Shown here: positions 23,232-34,103 of the stretch, piece after piece | How positions within the stretch are numbered: position 1 is the stretch's first letter | Layout: each line of letters opens with the position of its first letter | The notes under the pieces: model-generated | Databases searched by the model: none | What the model saw: only the letters and a program-made list of their open reading frames with translations | What the model was told of the DNA's origin: nothing | NCBI RefSeq assembly: GCF_003172915.1 | Contig: NZ_QGKU01000038.1 | Coordinates: forward strand, 1-64,000 | Direction: 5' to 3' | From: Meridianimarinicoccus roseus | GTDB lineage: Bacteria; Pseudomonadota; Alphaproteobacteria; Rhodobacterales; Rhodobacteraceae | Length of the DNA stretch: 64,000 nt | Translations under genes and position numbers: made by a program

Positions 23232-23864
23232 TCAGGACGCCCGGCTGCGGGTGCGCAGCGCTGCCAGCGCCCCGATACCGGCCAGCGCCAGCGGCAACCC
23301 GGCGGGCAGGGGCACCGGGGCCGGGCTTGGTGCCGGTGCGGGCATCACGGCCCCGACCCGTTCGGCTGTATAGATCACGCCGAGCGGGCGCTTGTCGCGG
23401 CCATAGAACGCATCGCTGTCATAAAAGCGCAGCGCGACGTGGATCGGGCCTGTATACCCGTCGAGCACATAGGACACCTTGTGGGCGCTGTCCCCGTCGA
23501 GCCCGCTGATGGATTCGGTGTAGTGGCCCGGATTGTGATAGTGGTCGGGCCAGGAGTGCTTGTTCTTGAAGGCCTCGCGCTGCAGCAGGAAATCCAGCTT
23601 GCCGTTTTTCCCGCCGGGATGCGTGAACACGAAATCAAGGCTGAGCGTGCCTTCGGCGAAGCCGTCGAAGGTCAGGAAGTCGATGTCGTTCTGCTTGTTC
23701 TGCGCGCCGGTGACCAGACGCACGTCACTGCTGAAGACAGGCGCGCTTGCCGGGTTGCCCGCGAAGTCGCCATTCGGGTCGGATGCCTCACTGGCCGGAA
23801 GGGTGGCCGCACTGACGCCGGTCGAGAAAAGTGCTGCAATAAGTGTGATGACGATGTGCTTCAT
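23232..23864 (-). CDS. VPLPA-CTERM sorting domain protein
   Basis: Exported protein of 210 residues of unknown function. A signal peptide (MKHIVITLIAALFSTGVSAA) is followed by a soluble domain of roughly 150 residues with no recognised motif. The C-terminal tail reads VPLPAGLPLALAGIGALAALRTR: the VPLPA motif, a membrane helix and basic residues. This is the Rhodobacterales version of PEP-CTERM sorting, where an exosortase-like system processes the tail for surface display. It is monocistronic with its own terminator. Two further members of this class, one broken, occur near 49-51 kb. Confidence 0.85.
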   Translation of the reverse strand: MKHIVITLIAALFSTGVSAATLPASEASDPNGDFAGNPASAPVFSSDVRLVTGAQNKQNDIDFLTFDGFAEGTLSLDFVFTHPGGKNGKLDFLLQREAFKNKHSWPDHYHNPGHYTESISGLDGDSAHKVSYVLDGYTGPIHVALRFYDSDAFYGRDKRPLGVIYTAERVGAVMPAPAPSPAPVPLPAGLPLALAGIGALAALRTRSRAS

Positions 23865-24028: not shown

Positions 24029-25084
24029 TCAGTTCAGGTCGCGCGCGTTGGCCGCTTCCATGTCCGCCTCGGCCTTGGCGACGGCGTCCTGCAGCGCGGC
24101 GAAGATCCGCTCGCCGCCATCGACATTGGCCTGGAACCAGTCATAGACCGGCGCCGCCGCGTCGCGGAACTGCGCCATCTCGTCCGGCGAGGGTACGTAG
24201 ATCTCCCCGCCACCTTCCACGAACGCCTCGTAGGCGGCAATGGACTTGCGCTTGGGGCTGGCGAAGGTCGCCTGCTGAAGCTGATAGAACCCGTCATTCA
24301 CCACGCGGCGCAGATCCTCGGGCATGGACAGGAAGCGGTCGTTGTTCATCCACCACAGCGCGCCCATGTAGGCGTGCCCGTCCAGCGTGATGTATTGCAG
24401 TCCGGCATCGGGAAACTTCATGCCCATGATGTCGGTGATGCCGTTCTTGGTGCCTTCCACGACGCCGGTCTGCAGCGAGGTGAACAACTCGGGCCACGGG
24501 ATCGGCGTCGGCGCGGCGCCGAGCGCGCGGGTCAGTTCCTGCGGCAGGTCGGCGACGACCGTTCGGATCTTCAGCCCCTCAAGGTCCGACGGCTGGCGCA
24601 CGGTGCGCTGGGTGTTGGCGAAGTTGCGCCATCCGCCGGTGTTGCCGATGGTCATCAGCCGGATCGTGCCGCCGCTGTCCTCAAGCGCCATATCCCGCAT
24701 GGTGCGCACAAAATCGCCCTGCAGCACGGTCTCTGCCACACGGTCTCCTGTCATCAGGTAGGGCAGGTCCAGCACCTGCACGTAGGGGAAGATCCCCGCC
24801 GCACCGCCCGAGGTGGAGATGAAGATGTCGATTGATCCGTCGGAGACGCCCTGAAGGCACTCTGCGCCATTGCTGCACAGCTGCGTGCCGATGAACAGCT
24901 CCACTGCGATCGCGCCGTTCGACGCGGCCTCCACGTAGTTCTTGAACACGACCAGCCCGTCGTAATCTTCGTCGTTCTCGTTGGAATTGGCGGTGGCGCG
25001 CAAAGTATAGTCCTGCGCGAGAGCTGCGAGTGGCGCGGCGGCTAGCGCTGCGGCCAGAAGCGGTGTGGTGAGGTGTCTGAGCAT
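24029..25084 (-). CDS. TRAP transporter solute-binding protein, DctP family
   Basis: Periplasmic binding protein of 351 residues, signal peptide ending near AALAQ. DctP-family landmarks are FIGTQLCSNGAECLQGVSDGSIDI, the region TGGWRNFANTQRTVRQPSDLEGLKIRT split around residue 170, and PIPWPELFTSLQTGVVEG. The family arginine that binds a carboxylate or sulfonate is probably in LKIRTVV. Two cysteines in QLCSNGAECLQ could form a disulfide. It is the last gene of a six-gene minus-strand operon that begins with the SsuD-like monooxygenase. I infer the ligand to be a sulfoquinovose glycoside or related sulfonate. Confidence 0.92.
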   Translation of the reverse strand: MLRHLTTPLLAAALAAAPLAALAQDYTLRATANSNENDEDYDGLVVFKNYVEAASNGAIAVELFIGTQLCSNGAECLQGVSDGSIDIFISTSGGAAGIFPYVQVLDLPYLMTGDRVAETVLQGDFVRTMRDMALEDSGGTIRLMTIGNTGGWRNFANTQRTVRQPSDLEGLKIRTVVADLPQELTRALGAAPTPIPWPELFTSLQTGVVEGTKNGITDIMGMKFPDAGLQYITLDGHAYMGALWWMNNDRFLSMPEDLRRVVNDGFYQLQQATFASPKRKSIAAYEAFVEGGGEIYVPSPDEMAQFRDAAAPVYDWFQANVDGGERIFAALQDAVAKAEADMEAANARDLN

Positions 25085-25107
25085 GTCTTTTCTCCCTGTC
25101 AGATGCT

Positions 25108-26397
25108 CTAGTTCACGAAGCCCGCAAGGCGGGGCACGGTCATGGAAAAGGCGGGCACGAAGGTGATCAGGAAGATCACCGCGATCTCGACCGCGAGGAA
25201 CGGCAGGATGGCGCGAGCGATGGTTTCGACCCGTTCGCCAGACACGCTGGAGGCGACGAACAGCACCAGCCCCATTGGCGGCGTCGCCAGCCCGACGGTC
25301 AGGTTGACCGACATGATGATAGCGAAATGCACGCTGTCCACGCCGAGATCGGTGAAGATCGGCCCCAGGATCGGCCCGAGGATGATGATCGCGGGTCCGG
25401 CATCGAGGAACATGCCGACGATGAACAGCAGAAGGTTGATCAGGAACAGGAGTATCAGCGGGTTTTCCGACAGCCCGAGGATGATCGCGGCCAGCGTTTC
25501 GGGCGCGTGGCTGAGCGAGACGACTGTCTTGAAAGCCATCGCGGAGCCGACCAGAAGCAGCACCACCGCCGATGTCATACCGGCGCGGGCCAGCACGTCC
25601 GGGATCTCGGCTAGACGCAGCGATCTGAGAACGAACAGCCCGATCACCAGCGCGTAGGCGACGGCGACTGCGGCGGCCTCGGTCGGGGTGAACACTCCGC
25701 CAAGGATGCCGCCAAGGATGATGACGGGCGTCAGCAGCGGGAAGAACGCCTTCAGGCTGGCGCGGCCTGTTTCGCCCCAGGTGGTGCGCGGCGAGGCGAT
25801 CGGAAAGTCATATCGGTCGGCCATGACCTTGATCATCAGCATCAGCCCGAGCCCGACGAGGATGCCAGGCACGATCCCCGCAAGGAAAAGCGCCGCGACC
25901 GACTCGCCCATCACGTAGGCGTATATGATCATGATGCCCGACGGTGGGATGATCGGCCCGATCACCGAACTCGCCGCGGTGATCGCGGCGGCGAAACGGC
26001 GGGTGTAACCCTGTCTTTCCATCGCCGGGATCAGCATCGATCCAAGCGCCGAGGTGTCCGCCACGGCCGATCCTGACAGTCCCGCGAACAGCATCGAGGA
26101 CAGCACATTCACATGCGCCAGCCCGCCGCGCAGGTGCCCCATCAGCGCCTGGCTGAATTCCACCAGCCGCGCGGTGATGCCACCGCGGTTCATCAACTCT
26201 CCCGCGAGCATGAAGAACGGGATCGCCATCAGCGGAAAGCTGTCCATACCGTTATAGACGTTGCGATAAAGCAGGGCGATGTCGCGTTCCTGACCGTTCA
26301 GGAACAAAAGCAGCCCCGGCGCGGCCAGCATCGCGAAGAACACCGGCAGGCCGATGAGCAGAAAAACGAGGAAAAGTGGCAGGAACCAGATCAGCAT
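25108..26397 (-). CDS. TRAP transporter large permease, DctM family
   Basis: Inner-membrane large subunit of the TRAP transporter, 429 residues, about 12 hydrophobic helices. DctM landmarks are MAIPFFMLAGELMNRGGI, MLFAGLSGSAVADTSALGSMLIP, IGPIIPPSGIMI and VNLTVGLATPPMGLVLFV. It uses a sodium or proton gradient to import the ligand delivered by the binding protein. It starts immediately after the DctQ stop codon, with no spacer, so the two membrane subunits are co-translated. Confidence 0.95.
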   Translation of the reverse strand: MLIWFLPLFLVFLLIGLPVFFAMLAAPGLLLFLNGQERDIALLYRNVYNGMDSFPLMAIPFFMLAGELMNRGGITARLVEFSQALMGHLRGGLAHVNVLSSMLFAGLSGSAVADTSALGSMLIPAMERQGYTRRFAAAITAASSVIGPIIPPSGIMIIYAYVMGESVAALFLAGIVPGILVGLGLMLMIKVMADRYDFPIASPRTTWGETGRASLKAFFPLLTPVIILGGILGGVFTPTEAAAVAVAYALVIGLFVLRSLRLAEIPDVLARAGMTSAVVLLLVGSAMAFKTVVSLSHAPETLAAIILGLSENPLILLFLINLLLFIVGMFLDAGPAIIILGPILGPIFTDLGVDSVHFAIIMSVNLTVGLATPPMGLVLFVASSVSGERVETIARAILPFLAVEIAVIFLITFVPAFSMTVPRLAGFVN

Positions 26398-27054
26398 CTA
26401 TTCCGCCTCCACCACGTCCTGCGGGATCGCCTGCAGCGCCGCCGCGCCGCCACCCAAGGTCACCAGAGCGCGCAGCATCAGTTCGATATTGACGAGCGTG
26501 AGAAGCACAAGTCCGACGAACAGCGACCCATACATCATTGCCAGCGGCATCTTCACCCAGCCGAAGGACAGACCAAGCGCGGCGTCGGCGCGGGTGCATA
26601 ACGTCAGCGACAGCCCGCTTCCCGGCAACGGCAGCGCGAATTCGAATGTGAACGGTACCCAGAGCGACGCCGACTTGAACAGGCATCCGGACATTGTGTG
26701 CGAATGGCCCAGCTGCACGCCCTTCAGCAGCACCAGCAGGGCGACGGACAGCAGCGCCAGCCCCAGCAGCGCCGCGACGCGGCTGGGCAGGGCGCGGGAC
26801 ACAAGGTCGATCGCCACGAAGCCGCCGCGCCGGTAGGCGACGGGCGCGATCAGCCCGGTCATCCACAGCATCAGGAAACGCGCAGCTTCGTCGGGCCAGG
26901 GCAGCGCGTTGTTCAGAACATACCTGAAGAACACCTGGAGCAGTATCACCGCCACCATCAGCGCCATCGCGGCGACCGTCACCCATCGACCGAACGCCCC
27001 GGCGGCCGTGTTCAGCGCCTGAAGCGGCCCCAGAAGCCCCAGCAATACCGCCAT
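26398..27054 (-). CDS. TRAP transporter small permease, DctQ family
   Basis: Small membrane subunit of the TRAP transporter, 218 residues, four helices. DctQ landmarks are VILLQVFFRYVLNNALPWPDEAARFLMLWM (split at residue 70) and a conserved Ala-Arg motif. The start was set at the ATG at 27054, which has GGGAGGAGG nine bases upstream; the frame is open for 27 further codons. Between helices 3 and 4 there is a long loop (GHSHTMSGCLFKSASLW to LPGSGLSLTLCTRADAA) with two cysteines, larger than in typical DctQ proteins, which may form a periplasmic lid. Confidence 0.88.
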   Translation of the reverse strand: MAVLLGLLGPLQALNTAAGAFGRWVTVAAMALMVAVILLQVFFRYVLNNALPWPDEAARFLMLWMTGLIAPVAYRRGGFVAIDLVSRALPSRVAALLGLALLSVALLVLLKGVQLGHSHTMSGCLFKSASLWVPFTFEFALPLPGSGLSLTLCTRADAALGLSFGWVKMPLAMMYGSLFVGLVLLTLVNIELMLRALVTLGGGAAALQAIPQDVVEAE

Positions 27055-27148
27055 CGCGGCGATCCTCCTCCCATCGGGCCGCATTGTGCGGCCGCCGCCC
27101 GCCTTGCGCGGGTCTGGCTGGCACGGGGCCGACAAGCCCCCTGCAGTG

Positions 27149-27667
27149 TCAGTCCCGGCGCGCGAACCGGCCGAAGCCGCCCTTGGCGAACAGCAGCGGT
27201 GCGCCGTCGGACCTTGTCACGCGCAGAACCTGGCTGACAAGGATACGGTGGTCGCCGCCGGGATGGTCCGCGACGGTCTCGCATTCGAACCGCGCAAGAC
27301 ATCCGCCCAGAAGCGGCACGCCCTCCTCGGAGAGGATCCAGTCGACGCCGTCGAAAGCCCGGCCGTTCTTCGCGAAATGCAGCGCAAGATCGGCCTGACC
27401 TTCGTCCAGCACATGGATCGCGCTGAAGGACGCGTCGCGGAATACGGGGCAGCGATCCGACTTCAGATCGACCGACCAGAGCACCAGCGCCGGGGTCAGC
27501 GACACAGACGAAAAGCTGTTGGCGGTGATTGCGACAGGCCCGTCCGGTCCCTGTGCCGTAACGATGGTGACGCCGGTACCGAACAGACCCAGCGCATCAC
27601 GATACTGCCGCTCCGCTCCCGGGCCGGGCAGAAAACTCGTCATCTCGAAATCCTGCGTGCCGTCCAT
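27149..27667 (-). CDS. Flavin reductase (SmoA-like)
   Basis: Flavin reductase of 172 residues in the HpaC/DIM6 family, supplying reduced FMN to a partner monooxygenase. Family blocks are ALGLFGTGVTIVTAQGPDGPVAITANSFSSVSLTPALVLW (residues about 26-65) and the C-terminal HRILVSQVLRVTRSDG. It is encoded just downstream of the aldo/keto reductase, in the same operon as the SsuD-like monooxygenase. In the sulfoquinovose monooxygenase pathway this is the role of SmoA. A generic partner for alkanesulfonate oxidation would look similar. Confidence 0.88.
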   Translation of the reverse strand: MDGTQDFEMTSFLPGPGAERQYRDALGLFGTGVTIVTAQGPDGPVAITANSFSSVSLTPALVLWSVDLKSDRCPVFRDASFSAIHVLDEGQADLALHFAKNGRAFDGVDWILSEEGVPLLGGCLARFECETVADHPGGDHRILVSQVLRVTRSDGAPLLFAKGGFGRFARRD

Positions 27668-27668
27668 G

Positions 27669-28562
27669 TCATGGCACCTCCGCGCCGGTGGCTTCGGTAT
27701 AAAGCATGTACCAGTCTTCCCGGCTCAGCGTCACCTTGCACGCATCGGCGAGCGTGGCAATGCGCGCCAGTGTGTTCGTGCCCACCACCGGCGCGATCCA
27801 CGCGGGATGGGCCATCAGCCACGCGATGGCGACTGCGGCCGCGTCCACCCCGAACGGCTCTCCCATCGCGGTAAGCAGCTTCACTAGACCCTTGTTGCGT
27901 TTCTTGAACAGCGCGCCCCCGCCAAGCGGCGACCACGCCATCGGCACGATCGCGCGTTCCTGCAGGAAGGCCAGATCGCCGTTGGTGAACGGGTCTGCGT
28001 GCAGCAGGCTCATTTCGATCTGATTTGTCACCAGCGGCGTGCGCATCGCCGATTGCAGCAGAGTGAAGTCATGCGGGCGGAAGTTCGATACTCCGACATG
28101 GCGCACCTTGCCCGACGCCACCAGACCGTCCAGCGCTGCCCCGGTGTCGATATGGTTCATCAGCGGGTCGGGCCGGTGGATCAGCAGAAGATCGATCCGG
28201 TCAATGCCCATGTCCGTGAGCGACTGGTCCACCGACGCGGTAATATGCGCCGCAGTCGTGTCATAGTGCTTCACGCCGACCGCCGCGTGGCGCCCGACGG
28301 GCGCGACGATACCGCATTTGCTCACGATCTCCATCTGGTCGCGCAGGTGTGGCGCGGCCCGCAGCGCGCCGCCCAGAACCGCCTCTGCGGTATATCCGCC
28401 ATAGATGTCGGCCTGGTCGAAACTGGTGATGCCCTGGCTCAGGCAAGTTTCGATCTTGGCCTGCACGTGGCCGGGGCTTGTGTCCTCGTCATCCGCCAGC
28501 CGCCACATTCCGTAGACGATGCGCGAAAGCGAGAAATCCGGGGCGAGTATGGCGCGATGCAT
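27669..28562 (-). CDS. Aldo/keto reductase, YdhF type (SmoB-like)
   Basis: NAD(P)H-dependent aldo/keto reductase of 297 residues. The catalytic tetrad is visible as Asp49 and Tyr54 (FDQADIYGGY), Lys82 (IVSKCGI) and His129 (LLLIHRPDP). The sequence closely resembles E. coli YdhF through its length, including the end TLSREDWYMLYTEATGAEVP. In the SMO pathway SmoB reduces 6-dehydroglucose, left after C-S bond cleavage, to glucose. The start at 28562 shares one base with the stop of the upstream monooxygenase (TGATG), so the two are coupled. Substrate assignment is from gene context. Confidence 0.88.
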   Translation of the reverse strand: MHRAILAPDFSLSRIVYGMWRLADDEDTSPGHVQAKIETCLSQGITSFDQADIYGGYTAEAVLGGALRAAPHLRDQMEIVSKCGIVAPVGRHAAVGVKHYDTTAAHITASVDQSLTDMGIDRIDLLLIHRPDPLMNHIDTGAALDGLVASGKVRHVGVSNFRPHDFTLLQSAMRTPLVTNQIEMSLLHADPFTNGDLAFLQERAIVPMAWSPLGGGALFKKRNKGLVKLLTAMGEPFGVDAAAVAIAWLMAHPAWIAPVVGTNTLARIATLADACKVTLSREDWYMLYTEATGAEVP

Positions 28563-29716
28563 CAGTGACGGTCTCCCGTGCCCAGCGGGGTGGGCGGTGT
28601 TGTTGCGGGCACGCGCCCGTACACCTCGGGCAGCGCGCAGGTTTTCAGGTGCGGCATCACGCGCGCGCCGAAGTGGCGACATTCGTCCAGATGCGGATAC
28701 CCCGAGAGAATGAAGGCACGAATGCCCATCTTCCGATAGGCTTCAAGCTCGGACATAACCTGATCGGTGGACCCGACCAGTGCCGCGCCGCAGCCCGACC
28801 GCGCCCGCCCGATGCCGGTCCACAGGTGCCGTTCGACATAGCCGAACTTGTCGGCCAGTTCCCGCGCCCGGGCCTGGTGCGACACGCCCAGCGAGATGCT
28901 GTCATGCGCCCTGTCGCGGATCAGTGTGCCGTACTCGTCGTCCAACCGGCTGACGAGATGGTCGGCATATTCGCGCGCCTCGGCCTCGGTATCGCGCACG
29001 ATGACATGCACACGCAGCCCGTAATCCAGCGTTCTCCCATGATTTTCAGCTGCCTGTGCGGCGGCCTTCATGCGTTCGGAGATCTGCTCCTTCGGTTCGG
29101 GCCACATCAGATAGACGTCGCAATGCTGCCCGCACAGGTCCAGAGCGGCGGGCGAATAGCCCCCGAAATAAAGCAGCGGCCCGCCGGTCTGGTAGGGCCT
29201 CGCAGGATCGACAGTGAGTCCTTTGAAATCATAGACTTGCCCGGCATAGTTGATCTCGTCTCGGGTCCATGCCTGTTTCAGGATCTCGACGACCTCCCGG
29301 GACCTCTGGTAGCGGAATGCGCTGTCGGCCACTTCGCCGGGAAAATCGCTTGATATGATGTTGACGGTAAGGCGGCCCTTAAGCATGTGGTCGATCGTGG
29401 CCAAGGTGCGTGCCAGCATGATCGGTTGCATCTCGCCGCAGCGCACGGCGGCAAGGAAGTTGATCCTGTCGGTGATCGGGGCGTTCCCGGCCACAAAGCT
29501 CAGCACGTCCTGCCCGACCTGGTAGGACGAAGGGCAAAGGATGTTGCGGAAGCCCTGCGCCTCGGCCTCGCGCACGATGGCCGAGCAGTGTTCCCAACTG
29601 GACCGCAGCGCGCCGTCCGGCACGCCGAGAAAGGCGTAGTCGTCGGAACACAGGGCCGCGAACCACGACACTTCCACGGCGTCGAGATCAGCGGAGGTGA
29701 CGGGGACGACAGTCAT
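28562..29716 (-). CDS. SsuD-like FMNH2-dependent sulfonate monooxygenase (SmoC-like)
   Basis: Two-component luciferase-type monooxygenase of 384 residues, the same length as alkanesulfonate monooxygenase SsuD. Residues matching the SsuD active site are present: Trp205 in VYLMWPEP, Arg235 and His237 in GLRVHVIVR, Arg304/306 in GIGRARSG, and Tyr340 and His342 in LSGYPHLDE. These bind flavin and the sulfonate. With a flavin reductase and a YdhF-like reductase downstream it matches the SmoC-SmoB-SmoA set, in which SmoC cleaves sulfoquinovose to 6-dehydroglucose and sulfite. It is the first gene of its operon, divergent from a GntR regulator 77 bases away. Confidence 0.88.
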   Translation of the reverse strand: MTVVPVTSADLDAVEVSWFAALCSDDYAFLGVPDGALRSSWEHCSAIVREAEAQGFRNILCPSSYQVGQDVLSFVAGNAPITDRINFLAAVRCGEMQPIMLARTLATIDHMLKGRLTVNIISSDFPGEVADSAFRYQRSREVVEILKQAWTRDEINYAGQVYDFKGLTVDPARPYQTGGPLLYFGGYSPAALDLCGQHCDVYLMWPEPKEQISERMKAAAQAAENHGRTLDYGLRVHVIVRDTEAEAREYADHLVSRLDDEYGTLIRDRAHDSISLGVSHQARARELADKFGYVERHLWTGIGRARSGCGAALVGSTDQVMSELEAYRKMGIRAFILSGYPHLDECRHFGARVMPHLKTCALPEVYGRVPATTPPTPLGTGDRH

Positions 29717-29793
29717 CTTCTAGCTCCTGTTTTTCGCTTGCGTAGCAGCTTCGGATTGGTGCATCAATCATAAATCAATTTTGGCCCGGACCG

Positions 29794-30495
29794 ATGAGCA
29801 CCGACCGAAGCGCCCTTCCGAAATACCTGCAACTGTCGGAACTTCTGCTGCGCGAAATCGCGGCCGGGCGCTTGCGCGTGGGGGATCGTCTTCCACCTGA
29901 AAGGGCGATGGCCGACGACATGGGCGTAGCGGTGGGCACCTTGCGCAAGGCGCTGTCCCGGTTGGCGGATCAGGGCGTGATCGCGCGTCAGCAAGGGTCT
30001 GGAAATTACATCAAGGACACGGGGCAGGGTACTGGAATATATTCGTTCTTCCGACTTGAGAGGCGGGATGGTGGCGGGCTGCCACGGGCTCGAGTGCTCG
30101 AGGTTGCGCGCTGCGCGAAGACGCCGGACCTGCCGGACTTCGGCACCGCGCCGGATGCGCACCGCATCCGGCGGCTGCGGCTGCTGGACGAGCTGGTCGT
30201 CGCGGCCGAGGAAATCTGGCTCGACGGGGCCTATGCCGCGCAATTGTCGGCGCACGATCTTTCCGAGTCGCTCTATCTGTTCTACCGGATGCGGCTCGGG
30301 CTCTGGATCGCGGGCGTGGAAGACCGGATCGGCATCGGAGACGTGCCGCGCTGGGGCGCCGACATCGGGCTGACGGGCGGTGCGCCCTGCGGATTGGTGG
30401 ACCGGGTCAGCACCGCTCCGGACGGAACCCGGGCCGAAGTTTCCCGGACATGGTTCAACCCGGCGCGCGCGGTCTATGTTGCGCGCAGCCGCTGA
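29794..30495 (+). CDS. GntR family regulator with UTRA domain
   Basis: Transcription regulator of 233 residues. The N-terminal winged helix-turn-helix (about 8-72) contains LPPERAMADDMGVAVGTLRKAL, typical of GntR. A UTRA ligand-binding domain follows (about 90-230), placing it in the HutC subfamily. It is transcribed away from the monooxygenase/TRAP operon and ahead of the Gfo/Idh/MocA gene, so it most likely represses both until an inducer, perhaps sulfoquinovose or a breakdown product, is bound. The 77-base divergent gap must hold its operator; I could not define a clear palindrome. Confidence 0.9.
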   Translation: MSTDRSALPKYLQLSELLLREIAAGRLRVGDRLPPERAMADDMGVAVGTLRKALSRLADQGVIARQQGSGNYIKDTGQGTGIYSFFRLERRDGGGLPRARVLEVARCAKTPDLPDFGTAPDAHRIRRLRLLDELVVAAEEIWLDGAYAAQLSAHDLSESLYLFYRMRLGLWIAGVEDRIGIGDVPRWGADIGLTGGAPCGLVDRVSTAPDGTRAEVSRTWFNPARAVYVARSR

Positions 30496-30514
30496 AGGAA
30501 GAAGGGCGGCGCGC

Positions 30515-31636
30515 ATGGCACGCTTGCGATACGGCATCATCGGATGCGGAATGATGGGGCAAGAGCATATCCGGAACATCGCCCTGCTGGAGGCGGCTGA
30601 GGTCGCGGCGCTGTTCGAACCCGATCCCGCGATGCTGGCGCAGGCACGGGCGCTGGTTCCGGGCGCGACTGTCCATGACGGGCTCCATGCGCTTCTTGCC
30701 GATCCGAACCTCGACGCACTGGTCATCGCCAGCCCCAACGACTGCCATCTGGACCAGCTCGAACAGGTGGCGGCGACGCGCCCGCTGCCGGTGCTGGTGG
30801 AAAAGCCGCTGTTTACCAACCCGGCGGACCTGCCGCGCCTGGAGGCGTTCCGGGCGCATTACCCCGCGCCGGTCTGGGTGGCGATGGAGTATCGCTACAT
30901 GCCACCGGTTGCCGCGCTGGCCGAACAGGCTGCCGGTGTGACCGGAGGCATCCGGATGCTTACACTGCGCGAACACAGGTTCCCGTTTCTAGACAAGGTC
31001 GGCGGCTGGAACCTGCACACTGCCCGCACCGGTGGAACACTGGTCGAAAAGTGCTGCCATTTCTTCGACCTGATGCGCTTCCTGCTGGCTGACGAGCCGG
31101 TCCGCGTGATGGCGAGCGGTGGGCAGGCGGTGAACCGGCTGACCGAGGCGGATGTCTGGGACCATGCTTATGTGATCGTCGATTTCTCCGGCGGCGCGCG
31201 TGCGATGCTGGACCTTTGCATGTTCGCCGAAGGCTCCGAATACCAGGAGGAGATTACGGCCGTGGGCGCGCAAGGCAAGATCCAGGCGCTTGTGCCGGGG
31301 CCGGGGCGGTTTTGGCCGCCCGCGCTCGGGCCGGCACCGCAGCCCCGCCTTATCGTCAGTCCGCGAATGCCGAAAGGGCCGGTCGCGCGCGACATCCCGG
31401 TCCCGGACACGCTTCTGGAAGCGGGGGACCACAACGGCGCCACCTATTTCCAGCACCAGCGTTTTGTCGACGTGGTGCGCGGTGCGGCCACGCCCGAGGT
31501 CGGCTTCGAGGATGGCATGCGCGCGGTCAAGATGGGCCTTGCCGCCCAGCTTTCGGCCACCGAGGGGCGTGCTGTCACGCTGGATCTGCCGATACGCCGG
31601 GACGCCGCGCCGCTGGCGGCGATGGGCGCGCGATAG
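30515..31636 (+). CDS. Gfo/Idh/MocA family protein, candidate NAD+-dependent sulfoquinovosidase
   Basis: Cytoplasmic protein of 373 residues with an N-terminal Rossmann fold (LRYGIIGCGMMGQEHIRN), the family motif VEKPLFTN and the C-terminal catalytic segment GTLVEKCCHFFDLMRFL. Members of this fold act as sugar dehydrogenases or as NAD+-dependent glycosidases; one branch (CAZy GH188) consists of sulfoquinovosidases found in sulfoquinovose clusters lacking a classical GH31 enzyme, including in Roseobacters. No GH31 gene is present here, and this gene follows the GntR regulator beside the SmoCBA-like operon. I therefore favour the glycosidase role. A plain dehydrogenase remains possible. Start ATG 30515 was chosen from context. 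Confidence 0.8.
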   Translation: MARLRYGIIGCGMMGQEHIRNIALLEAAEVAALFEPDPAMLAQARALVPGATVHDGLHALLADPNLDALVIASPNDCHLDQLEQVAATRPLPVLVEKPLFTNPADLPRLEAFRAHYPAPVWVAMEYRYMPPVAALAEQAAGVTGGIRMLTLREHRFPFLDKVGGWNLHTARTGGTLVEKCCHFFDLMRFLLADEPVRVMASGGQAVNRLTEADVWDHAYVIVDFSGGARAMLDLCMFAEGSEYQEEITAVGAQGKIQALVPGPGRFWPPALGPAPQPRLIVSPRMPKGPVARDIPVPDTLLEAGDHNGATYFQHQRFVDVVRGAATPEVGFEDGMRAVKMGLAAQLSATEGRAVTLDLPIRRDAAPLAAMGAR

Positions 31637-31805: not shown

Positions 31806-32624
31806 TCAGTTCGACGGTGCGTTGGGGAAGAACAACTGCTGATCCGCGACGGTGTAGCCTGCGATGGCCGTTTGACCCTCCGCCGAAACCAGCCAGTCGG
31901 CAAAGGTCTGTGCGGCTTCGGTGTTGACACTGGGGCAATGGTCCGGGCTGACCGGTATCACGCCATACTGGTTGAACATGTCCTCGTCGCCCTGCACGGC
32001 GATCTGGTAGTCCTGCTTGTTCCCGAAGCTGATCCAGGTCGCGCGGTCGGTCATCACATAGGCGCCCATGCCGATGGCCGCGTTGAGCGTCGCCCCCATG
32101 CCGGAACCGGTCTCGCGGTACCAGTCACCCGAGGCGGCGGTCGGGTCGACACCGGCATCGGACCACAGCGCCATCTCCTTTTTGTGGGTGCCGCTGTCAT
32201 CCCCGCGCGAGGCAAACAGCGCGCCTTGCTCGGCGATCTTTGCCAGAGCGCCCTGCACGTCGTCGGAGCCGCCGACGCCGGCCGGATCGGCCTCGGGGCC
32301 GACGATGATGAAGTCGTTGTACATCAAGTCCGTTCGCGACGTGCCGTACCCCGCTTCGACAAACTTCTCTTCGGACGGCTTCGCATGGACCAGAAGCACA
32401 TCACCATCACAATTCTCGGCGTTCCTGATCGCCTGACCCGTGCCCACGGCCACCACGTTGACCTCGATGCCGGTCTTCTCCTGAAAGATCGGCAGCAGGT
32501 AGTCATAAAGCCCAGAATTCGCCGTCGATGTCGTCGACTGCACGATGATGGACTGGTCCTGAGCGCAGGCCTGGCCCGCAAGCAGAATGGCCAGCGTTGC
32601 TGCGCCAAGTGCACGTTTTCGCAT
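31806..32624 (-). CDS. tupA: Tungstate ABC transporter substrate-binding protein
   Basis: Periplasmic oxyanion-binding protein of 272 residues with a signal peptide (LAILLAGQACAQ). Its N-terminal motif TTSTANSGLYDYLLP and the following VGTGQA are characteristic of TupA, which binds tungstate much more tightly than molybdate. Further conserved blocks are SRGDDSGTHKKE and TDRATW. It is followed in the operon sense by the Tup ATPase and permease genes upstream on the minus strand, so order of transcription is tupB-tupC-tupA. Confidence 0.93.
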   Translation of the reverse strand: MRKRALGAATLAILLAGQACAQDQSIIVQSTTSTANSGLYDYLLPIFQEKTGIEVNVVAVGTGQAIRNAENCDGDVLLVHAKPSEEKFVEAGYGTSRTDLMYNDFIIVGPEADPAGVGGSDDVQGALAKIAEQGALFASRGDDSGTHKKEMALWSDAGVDPTAASGDWYRETGSGMGATLNAAIGMGAYVMTDRATWISFGNKQDYQIAVQGDEDMFNQYGVIPVSPDHCPSVNTEAAQTFADWLVSAEGQTAIAGYTVADQQLFFPNAPSN

Positions 32625-32647
32625 GTAACTCTCCCTGGATTGGTCCG

Positions 32648-33403
32648 TTAGACGACAAGCCTGCCGTCCATGTAATTCTGCGCCGACGCGCTTTGCGGCT
32701 CGCAGAAGAAGTCGCGCGCGGCCGTGTGTTCGGCGATGCGCCCGCCATGCAGGAACAGCACGTCGTCGGCCATGCGCCGGGCTTGCCCCATGTCATGCGT
32801 GACAAAGCAGATGCGCATACCGCGATTGCGCGCATCGCGCACGATGGTCTCGATCGCAAGAACCGACGCAGGGTCAAGGCTTGCGGTCGGCTCGTCGAGG
32901 AAAAGCACCTCCGGATCGGTGGCCAGTGCCCGTGCGAGGGCGAGCCGCTGCGCCTCGCCACCCGACAACAGGCGCGCGGGCTGATCCGCCTTGTGCGCGA
33001 GACCGACATGGTCCAGCAGTGCGTCGCGGCGGCCCCGGTCCTTGCCGCGGGTCTTGAGAACGAAGTCGATATTCGCGGCGACCGACCGGCGCAGCAGCAC
33101 CGGCTTCTGGAACACCAGTGCCTGCCGTTTCGTGACGGCCTGGGGGTCTTGCCCGCCCCAGTCGATGTGGCCGGATGTCGGGGCCATCAGTCCGTGCAAA
33201 AGCTTGAGAAGCAGGCTCTTGCCCGATCCGTTCGGGCCCATGATCATGGTGCAGCCCGCAGACCCGAGATCGAAGTTCAGGCCGTCCAGAACCGTGGTCT
33301 CCCCGAAGCGCAGGGTCAGGTCGCGCACGCTCAGCGGCATCAGCGGCGCAGCAGGCACCGCGTCCTTCAGCTTTGTGGCGAGGGGCAGCGCCGTGTCAGA
33401 CAT
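32648..33403 (-). CDS. tupC: Tungstate ABC transporter ATP-binding protein
   Basis: ABC ATPase of 251 residues with Walker A GPNGSGKSLLLK, signature LSGGEAQRLALARAL and Walker B EVLFLDEPTASLD. The first part of the gene overlaps the permease stop by eight bases (33396-33403), showing translational coupling. Its place between TupB and TupA identifies it as the energising subunit of tungstate uptake. Confidence 0.93.
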   Translation of the reverse strand: MSDTALPLATKLKDAVPAAPLMPLSVRDLTLRFGETTVLDGLNFDLGSAGCTMIMGPNGSGKSLLLKLLHGLMAPTSGHIDWGGQDPQAVTKRQALVFQKPVLLRRSVAANIDFVLKTRGKDRGRRDALLDHVGLAHKADQPARLLSGGEAQRLALARALATDPEVLFLDEPTASLDPASVLAIETIVRDARNRGMRICFVTHDMGQARRMADDVLFLHGGRIAEHTAARDFFCEPQSASAQNYMDGRLVV

Positions 33404-34103
33404 GGGCGTGCCGCGCCGCCGTCATGCGCACCGATTGCACTGCCGCGTTCACGCCTAGCGCAATGACCAGCAGGATGAGCCCCAGCGCCAGCGCCAGCGC
33501 CAGATCGCCCTTCGAGGTTTCTAGAGCGATGGCCGTGGTCATCACCCGTGTCAGGTGGTCGATATTCCCGCCCACGATGATGACTGCGCCGACCTCCGCG
33601 ACGGCCCGCCCGAACCCGGCAAGCCCGACCGTCAGAAGCGAATAGCGCGCGTCCCAGATCAGCGCCTGAACCGTCTGCAGCCGTGTCAGGCACAACGACC
33701 GGAACTGCTCGGCATATTCGGCATGAAGATCCTCGAGCACCTGCCGCGACAGGGCCGCGACGATCGGTGCGATCAGGATGGTTTGTGCGATGATCATCGC
33801 CGTCGGGGTATAGAGCAGACCCAGAAACCCCAGCGGCCCAGAGCGTGACAGGTGCAGGTACACGACAAGCCCGACGACCACCGGCGGCAGGCCCATGAGG
33901 GCGTTCATCACGATCAGCACGGCGCCGCGCCCTGAAAAGCGCCCGATGGCGACCAGCGCGCCGATGGGCAGTCCAATCAGACAAGCCACCGCTGTCGCAG
34001 TCAGGCTTACGCGCAGCGACAGAAGGACGATCTCCAACAGGTCGCCGTCGCCCGAGGCGACAAGTTGCAGCGCTAGTCCGAAGGCTTCTCCTATTGACTG
34101 CAA
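33396..34103 (-). CDS. tupB: Tungstate ABC transporter permease
   Basis: Inner-membrane permease of 235 residues, about five or six helices, with the ABC permease EAA-type loop around YAEQFRSLCLTRLQTVQAL. The start appears to be TTG at 34103, with GGTGG about 8 bases upstream; no ATG or GTG occurs in the first 25 codons. First gene of the tupB-tupC-tupA operon. Upstream (minus strand) is a 530-base gap shared with the divergent iron-complex-type importer. Confidence 0.88.
   Translation of the reverse strand: MQSIGEAFGLALQLVASGDGDLLEIVLLSLRVSLTATAVACLIGLPIGALVAIGRFSGRGAVLIVMNALMGLPPVVVGLVVYLHLSRSGPLGFLGLLYTPTAMIIAQTILIAPIVAALSRQVLEDLHAEYAEQFRSLCLTRLQTVQALIWDARYSLLTVGLAGFGRAVAEVGAVIIVGGNIDHLTRVMTTAIALETSKGDLALALALGLILLVIALGVNAAVQSVRMTAARHAHV

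Follow-up and report, generated by a model that had tools for sequence, protein, structure and literature searches.

A sulfoquinovose gene cluster of Meridianimarinicoccus roseus with a predicted TRAP importer from a clade found beside two sulfoquinovose pathways

Membrane lipids of plants and algae contain the sulphur-bearing sugar sulfoquinovose (SQ), which bacteria of the Roseobacter type reportedly use in the sea. The sulfoquinovose monooxygenase (sulfo-SMO) pathway of Agrobacterium was reportedly described by Sharma in 2022, and Liu is said to have reported growth of D. shibae on SQ in 2023. Here we analyze a gene cluster at positions 24029 to 31636 of a 64,000-nucleotide stretch of DNA (the window; contig NZ_QGKU01000038.1, positions 1 to 64,000) of Meridianimarinicoccus roseus, a bacterium from a largely marine group. 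It has counterparts of the Agrobacterium monooxygenase SmoC, aldo/keto reductase SmoB and flavin reductase SmoA, and the same chemistry is expected. The difference is that the genome is devoid of a GH31 sulfoquinovosidase (GH, glycoside hydrolase) and that no such ATP-binding cassette (ABC) importer lies beside the genes; a tripartite ATP-independent periplasmic (TRAP) transporter and an enzyme of family GH188 are found instead. Compared to the Roseobacter sulfo-SMO pathway with the GH188 sulfoquinovosidase SqgA (Kaur 2023, PMC10755693), the enzymes are the same, and no difference in kind was found.

Two further described systems are pertinent to the transporter. The isethionate receptor IseP is, like the DctP protein of the cluster, a TRAP solute-binding protein (SBP) with two arginines and one asparagine. 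The clamp comprises Arg152, Arg173 and Asn213 in structure 4P47, and its position around the sulfonate of isethionate in IseP shows that an Arg-Arg-Asn clamp can take a sulfonate (PMC11668362). The two proteins share 24% identity, and the DctP clade differs in its invariant Cys70 and Cys76 and in an expected sugar-sized ligand. Clusters of the sulfo-Embden-Meyerhof-Parnas (sulfo-EMP) type with GH188 (Kaur 2023; PMC11465081) resemble the surroundings of the same TRAP clade in relatives, where PfkB, LacD-type aldolase, SQ-isomerase-like and GH188 genes are nearby. Such sulfo-EMP-type genes are not in the window, and the clusters in PMC11465081 have ABC transporters.

Judged by sequence comparison, it is highly probable that the locus is a complete sulfo-SMO cluster with a TRAP transporter dedicated to the uptake of SQ or of its glycoside with glycerol. 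The cluster belongs to a known type that is widespread in the family, and its enzyme set is ordinary for the group. The addition made here concerns the transporter clade, which appears to be shared by two SQ pathways and is the part most worth testing.

Layout and enzymes of the cluster

The genome comprises 4.29 Mb in 69 contigs, with completeness rated at 100%. The eight genes that a previous sequence-only reading had placed in the cluster are present as intact open reading frames (ORFs), and the Pfam families DctP, DctM, DctQ, Flavin_Reduct, Aldo_ket_red, Bac_luciferase, GntR with UTRA, and GFO_IDH_MocA were all found above their cut-offs. The features are as follows.

24029-25084, minus strand: DctP, TRAP SBP, proposed receptor for SQ/SQ glyceride (PF03480, 178.6 bits)
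25108-26397, minus strand: DctM, TRAP large permease (PF06808, 391.9 bits)
26398-27084, minus strand: DctQ, TRAP small permease (PF04290, 70.1 bits)
27149-27667, minus strand: SmoA-type flavin reductase (PF01613, 122.3 bits)
27669-28562, minus strand: SmoB-type aldo/keto reductase, predicted 6-oxoglucose reductase (438.6 bits to 7bbz)
28562-29716, minus strand: SmoC-type SQ monooxygenase, predicted to depend on reduced flavin mononucleotide (FMNH2; 725 bits to 7oh2)
29763-29779, minus strand: likely operator, direct repeat ATTGAT-N5-ATTGAT (comparison of smoC upstream regions)
29794-30495, plus strand: GntR/HutC-type (UTRA) regulator, divergent from the operon (PF00392 and PF07702)
30515-31636, plus strand: SqgA, GH188-type NAD+-dependent sulfoquinovosidase (499 bits to 8zn9; active-site residues; tree)

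The operon order is SmoC-SmoB-SmoA-DctQ-DctM-DctP, and with its three subunits the TRAP set is complete. The adjacency and coupling of the three enzyme genes can be read directly from the sequence, in agreement with the earlier proposal: the smoC stop and the smoB start share TGATG, and 1 nucleotide (nt) separates the smoB stop from the smoA start. The ATG of dctM immediately follows the dctQ stop. Longer ORFs exist for smoB (27669-28682; likely true start 28562) and sqgA (30380-31636; likely true start 30515), and the open frame of dctQ, which has an ATG at 27084, extends to 27135 with a TTG start. The presence of SmoB and SmoC in one cluster is used to define sulfo-SMO (sulfo-ASMO) in PMC13372026; here the two genes overlap, with the scores listed above, and the PF01613 flavin reductase gene lies directly 3' of smoB, within the operon.

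SmoC scored 725 bits to 7oh2 and 724 bits to 7olf, which we take to be the SQ monooxygenases of Agrobacterium and Rhizobium (the molecule names in the PDB are generic), versus 194 bits to MsuD (7jv3) and 190 bits to SsuD (1nqk, 1m41). SmoB scored 438.6 bits to 7bbz, presumably the Agrobacterium SmoB under an equally generic name, versus 223.5 bits to E. coli YdhF (1ur3). By these scores both proteins are closest to solved SQ enzymes and far from SsuD and YdhF, and the earlier placement of the monooxygenase with SmoC stands. No other PF00296 protein turned up in the genome.

The Gfo/Idh/MocA protein encoded at 30515 had been put forward as a candidate GH188 enzyme, and this assignment is borne out by 499 bits to 8zn9 and 352 bits to the GH188 structure 8qc2, compared to at most 74 bits to inositol-type or ordinary dehydrogenases. 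The structure 8qc2 represents FlSqgA with NAD and SQ, and in ArSqgA the residues contacting SQ are Lys107, Tyr136, Glu163, Glu189, His193 and His321, with the sulfonate triad Arg166, Leu170 and Lys172 (PMC10755693). When this numbering was mapped via an alignment (the first Glu being 163 or 164), the counterparts K97, Y126, E153, E178, H182 and H306 as well as R155, L159 and K161 were identical in 114 of 114 rows, and all nine published positions are kept in the window protein. By sequence, it is a GH188-type NAD+-dependent sulfoquinovosidase. A GH31 enzyme was indeed absent, as claimed before: PF01055 had no match across the whole genome, with a control that was positive in 6 of 14 genomes. 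Because the SqgA protein begins directly with the Rossmann fold it is probably cytoplasmic, and therefore the SQ glyceride itself is a likely transported cargo. GH188 enzymes accept alpha and beta SQ glycosides and are near-universal in Roseobacter sulfo-SMO clusters (Kaur 2023, PMC10755693), so this part of the system was already known. The sequence-only reading overstated the novelty of the cluster: the pairing of GH188 and SMO was already in print for Roseobacters, and many genomes of the family share the TRAP layout.

The direct repeat lies upstream of both smoC and gntR, at distances of 46 and 14 nt, respectively; in our own reading of the promoter it overlaps a -35-like TTGATG, 17 nt before a -10-like TACGCA. 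Of 81 regions upstream of smoC, 76 contained it without mismatch and the other five with one mismatch; these are not as many independent observations, because the relatives share descent. The best of 810 base shuffles had 2 mismatches, and the window contains one exact site. The repeat is likely to be the operator of the GntR regulator.

A transporter clade beside two sulfoquinovose pathways

The distribution of the cluster was surveyed in 394 genomes of the same family. Matches to SmoC (cut-off 1e-100) were found in 165, to the DctP clade (1e-90) in 144 and to GH188 (1e-60) in 192 of them, which rules out that the cluster is rare. SmoC and the DctP clade occurred together in 110 genomes. The places of SmoC were listed for 150 of its 165 genomes (15 unlisted), and both places for 101 of the 110: in 95 of these the starts of the two genes are separated by 4.4-5.1 kb, in six they are on different contigs, and no pair is farther apart on one contig. 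DctP and GH188 co-occurred in 137 of the 144 DctP genomes. The link persists in the 229 genomes without a SmoC match, as GH188 was found in 29 of the 34 with DctP versus 1 of the 195 without it. Among the matches listed, 566 stretches encode a SmoC relative, and the loci of the best 80 (80-86% identity) contained SmoB and SqgA in all 80 cases, GntR in 79, SmoA in 64, DctP in 41, and DctQ and DctM in 42; no TRAP genes were in the fetched stretch of the other 38. The association is not due to chance, since relatives chosen by SmoC have SmoB and SqgA in 80 of 80 and the TRAP permeases in 42 of 80 cases. One genome (G035, locus L122) has the full layout with TRAP in the same order.

The surroundings of DctP were fetched for all 34 genomes without a SmoC match. 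An SQ-isomerase-like gene was present in 23 of these loci, 22 of which also had a second kind of GH188; all 23 of these sulfo-EMP-like loci encode a PfkB kinase, and 21 a LacD-type aldolase. The isomerase of locus L104 reached 260 bits with the sulfoquinovose isomerase model NF048012, below its cut-off of 700.

Trees of the two proteins gave different pictures. In the DctP tree, SMO and sulfo-EMP-like loci are mixed, with 10 label changes compared to 20.6-20.8 in shuffles (the bootstrap had not settled). Five of the 10 changes are forced by well-supported branches, and a single clade of the 24 sulfo-EMP DctP rows was rejected (approximately unbiased test, p 0.0098). The tree was built without 3 of the 12 own-genome paralogs, which had no phmmer hit; the counting of changes was done without 14 near-identical rows, 9 paralogs, L102, L108, L118 and L145, and with L144 ungrouped. 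The partial clusters L092, L093, L099, L110, L116 and L120 were counted under the SMO label. The GH188 tree, in contrast, is split by pathway (93 versus 19 rows) with a single change, as determined by a quick method. All its non-EMP rows were labelled SMO except L101 and L108, and two dehydrogenases served as outgroup, so that the tree gives the order within GH188 and not the split of SqgA from dehydrogenases. As the GH188 tree splits by pathway and the DctP tree mixes, it seems that the glycosidase stays with its pathway and the transporter is shared, and the simplest reading of a shared transporter is that DctPQM carries the common starting material, SQ or its glycosides. We think it likely that DctPQM represents a dedicated, ion-driven sulfoquinovoside importer clade, marked by the invariant Cys70/Cys76, that was repeatedly re-paired with SMO and sulfo-EMP-like pathways, each of which kept its own GH188 branch.

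The binding protein itself is compatible with this role. The clamp residues R153, R174 and N214, together with W197, are identical in 93 of 93 pathway-labelled rows, the window included, and so are Cys70 and Cys76. None of nine DctP paralogs from the same genome has a cysteine at position 70 or 76; the second arginine is kept by eight and the first by one, which means that the paralogs of this genome do not generally have the full clamp. An AlphaFold2 model (predicted local distance difference test score, pLDDT, of 80) had as best PDB match in Foldseek the isethionate SBP 8t9t (24% identity), with a negligible margin over 4p8b, which is equal within error. This match weakly suggests a sulfonate ligand, and the conserved clamp and the model fit one.

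The layout extends to plasmids and beyond the family. SmoC occurs in 16 plasmid records, and among the 10 whose annotations were examined, 8 share the TRAP layout, including SmoA, SmoB and the Gfo gene (three from Ruegeria and one each from Roseivivax, Salipiger, Roseicitreum, Paracoccus and Rhizobium). A Marinovum plasmid has an ABC transporter in place of TRAP, for which no role in SQ transport is claimed, as its SBP reaches at most 57 bits to any solved receptor. The DctP clade (at least 72% identity) was present in 10 of 72,556 plasmid records, all of which are SmoC plasmids. In a sample of 385 Alphaproteobacteria, DctP had matches in 13, five of them from the same family; six of the other eight showed 75-81% and two 46-52% identity. 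Two of these eight lie in an SMO and two in a sulfo-EMP-like context, one distant copy has an aldolase gene and an SQ-isomerase-like gene in its vicinity, and the remaining three have none of these SQ genes in view, one being on a 3.2 kb contig.

Several peculiarities of related loci were also observed. In L092 (8746-9036), L120 (9031-9302) and L101 (5516-5698), SmoC is missing and 182-290 bp stand at its place; all three keep SqgA and TRAP, and two of them SmoB and SmoA. This could be either a gene loss or a draft-assembly error. The plasmid of Qingshengfaniella alkalisoli (L152, 8209-13310) has GntR, SmoC and TRAP only, and is devoid of SmoB, SmoA and GH188. In many relatives from both SQ contexts a di-haem cytochrome c peroxidase/MauG-like gene (PF03150) follows dctP (e.g., L104:9128-10945, L083:15843-17072, L122:4831-6666 and L127-L136), in some of them after a tetratricopeptide repeat (TPR) gene or a gene read by eye as PhyH-like; the window has no match to this gene. 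There, dctP is followed by a short protein (23232-23864), the tail of which we take to be VPLPA/PEP-CTERM-like; among the fetched loci it has matches of 42-44% only in L003 and L040, likewise after dctP. On the other side, tupABC-like genes (31806-34103) adjoin sqgA. The other fetched loci contained no match to TupA, TupB, an M42 peptidase or three further neighbors; the hits to TupC were general ones to ABC ATPases, at about 31%. No link between these flanking genes and the cluster was seen.

Proposed mechanism and alternatives

From gene content, orthology, the conserved residues and repeat, and the genome-wide linkage we infer the activities, the transport substrate and the regulator site of the following scheme. 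In the periplasm, DctP would bind SQ, its glyceride or both, holding the sulfonate in the Arg-Arg-Asn clamp. DctQM would move the substrate inward on an ion gradient. Cytoplasmic SqgA would cleave the glycoside via transient C3 oxidation with bound NAD+. SmoC would then use O2 and FMNH2 delivered by SmoA to form sulfite and 6-oxoglucose, which SmoB would convert to glucose. The GntR regulator would bind the ATTGAT repeats at the smoC promoter.

A number of observations weigh against this scheme or against a clade dedicated to SQ. SmoA is assigned by its domain and position. The TRAP clade is not obligatory, as 55 of the 165 SmoC genomes are without it, and 7 of the 144 DctP genomes have no GH188 match. 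In 11 of the 34 SmoC-less DctP loci the fetched stretch has no SQ isomerase; seven of these hold partial smo clusters (L092, L093, L099, L101, L110, L116 and L120; L101 has only SqgA, GntR and TRAP, and L116 a SmoC fragment at a contig end), and four (L090, L102, L107 and L118) have no SQ gene in view. A NagB-like and YdjC-like pair stands beside DctPQM in four genomes (L119, 5023-6833; L090; L098; L106), and another sugar may be handled there. The DctP model is poor at residues 208-221, which span N214, and the clamp residues alone are no proof of a sulfonate, because the same Arg-Arg-Asn arrangement also serves carboxylates.

The least improbable alternative is that the enzymes serve SQ and the TRAP transporter imports something else, e.g., a sugar acid consumed alongside, with SQ entering via another carrier. 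TRAP SBPs typically bind carboxylates through the same arginines (PMC11668362), the sugar-acid binder 7bbr is among the structural matches of DctP, and a third of the SmoC genomes manage without this clade. We nevertheless consider this alternative unlikely, since the clade goes with either of two unrelated SQ pathways and accompanies GH188 also in genomes that have no SmoC. Furthermore, one alternative ABC receptor had no match in the genome, in a search run without positive control and not extended to the Agrobacterium receptor. The earlier statement that an ABC importer is absent holds for the cluster itself, as the neighboring ABC genes look tungstate-type (TupA-like, 231 bits, below the model cut-off of 400) and no Agrobacterium-type importer is encoded there; the rest of the genome was not searched for it. 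The proposed role of the TRAP transporter as SQ importer is drawn from its genome context.

Still less probable as the substrate is an SQ-related sulfosugar, e.g., sulfofucose or a conjugate of SQ different from its glyceride. GH188 takes both anomeric types of SQ glycosides, and a sulfofucose pathway exists in Paracoccus; however, the latter has other enzymes and an ABC transporter (PMC12421959). The SmoC of the window is moreover very near to the solved enzymes presumed above to be SQ monooxygenases. Finally, an SsuD-type alkanesulfonate scavenging operon beside an ordinary sugar/inositol dehydrogenase, as might be suggested by the broad families PF00296 and GFO_IDH_MocA and by the best NCBIfam models (alkanesulfonate monooxygenase for one protein, inositol dehydrogenase for the other, with scores well short of the cut-offs), is rejected on the basis of the scores of both proteins and the retained sulfonate triad of SqgA.

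No TRAP transporter for SQ was found in the literature searched, which comprised part of the papers listed and neither Liu 2023 nor any supplements. The word "TRAP" is absent from the main texts, as far as excerpted, of Kaur 2023, the reviews PMC12890257 and PMC9594981, and PMC13372026; "transporter" is also absent from the main text of Kaur 2023, the figures and supplement of which were outside the search. The one article found to hold both "sulfoquinovose" and "TRAP transporter" is on a taurine-respiring gut bacterium (PMC10507020), and in three others with "trap" the word denotes an instrument part. The negative outcome weakly suggests that no TRAP importer for SQ has been reported so far. 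If the proposal is true, the clade would be the first TRAP family for a sulfosugar within the literature examined. The yearly production of SQ is estimated at about 10 billion tons (PMC10755693), and uptake determines whether free SQ or the glyceride is taken. Being linked with both SQ pathways, the transporter clade would be a pathway-independent marker of SQ uptake for marine metagenomes.

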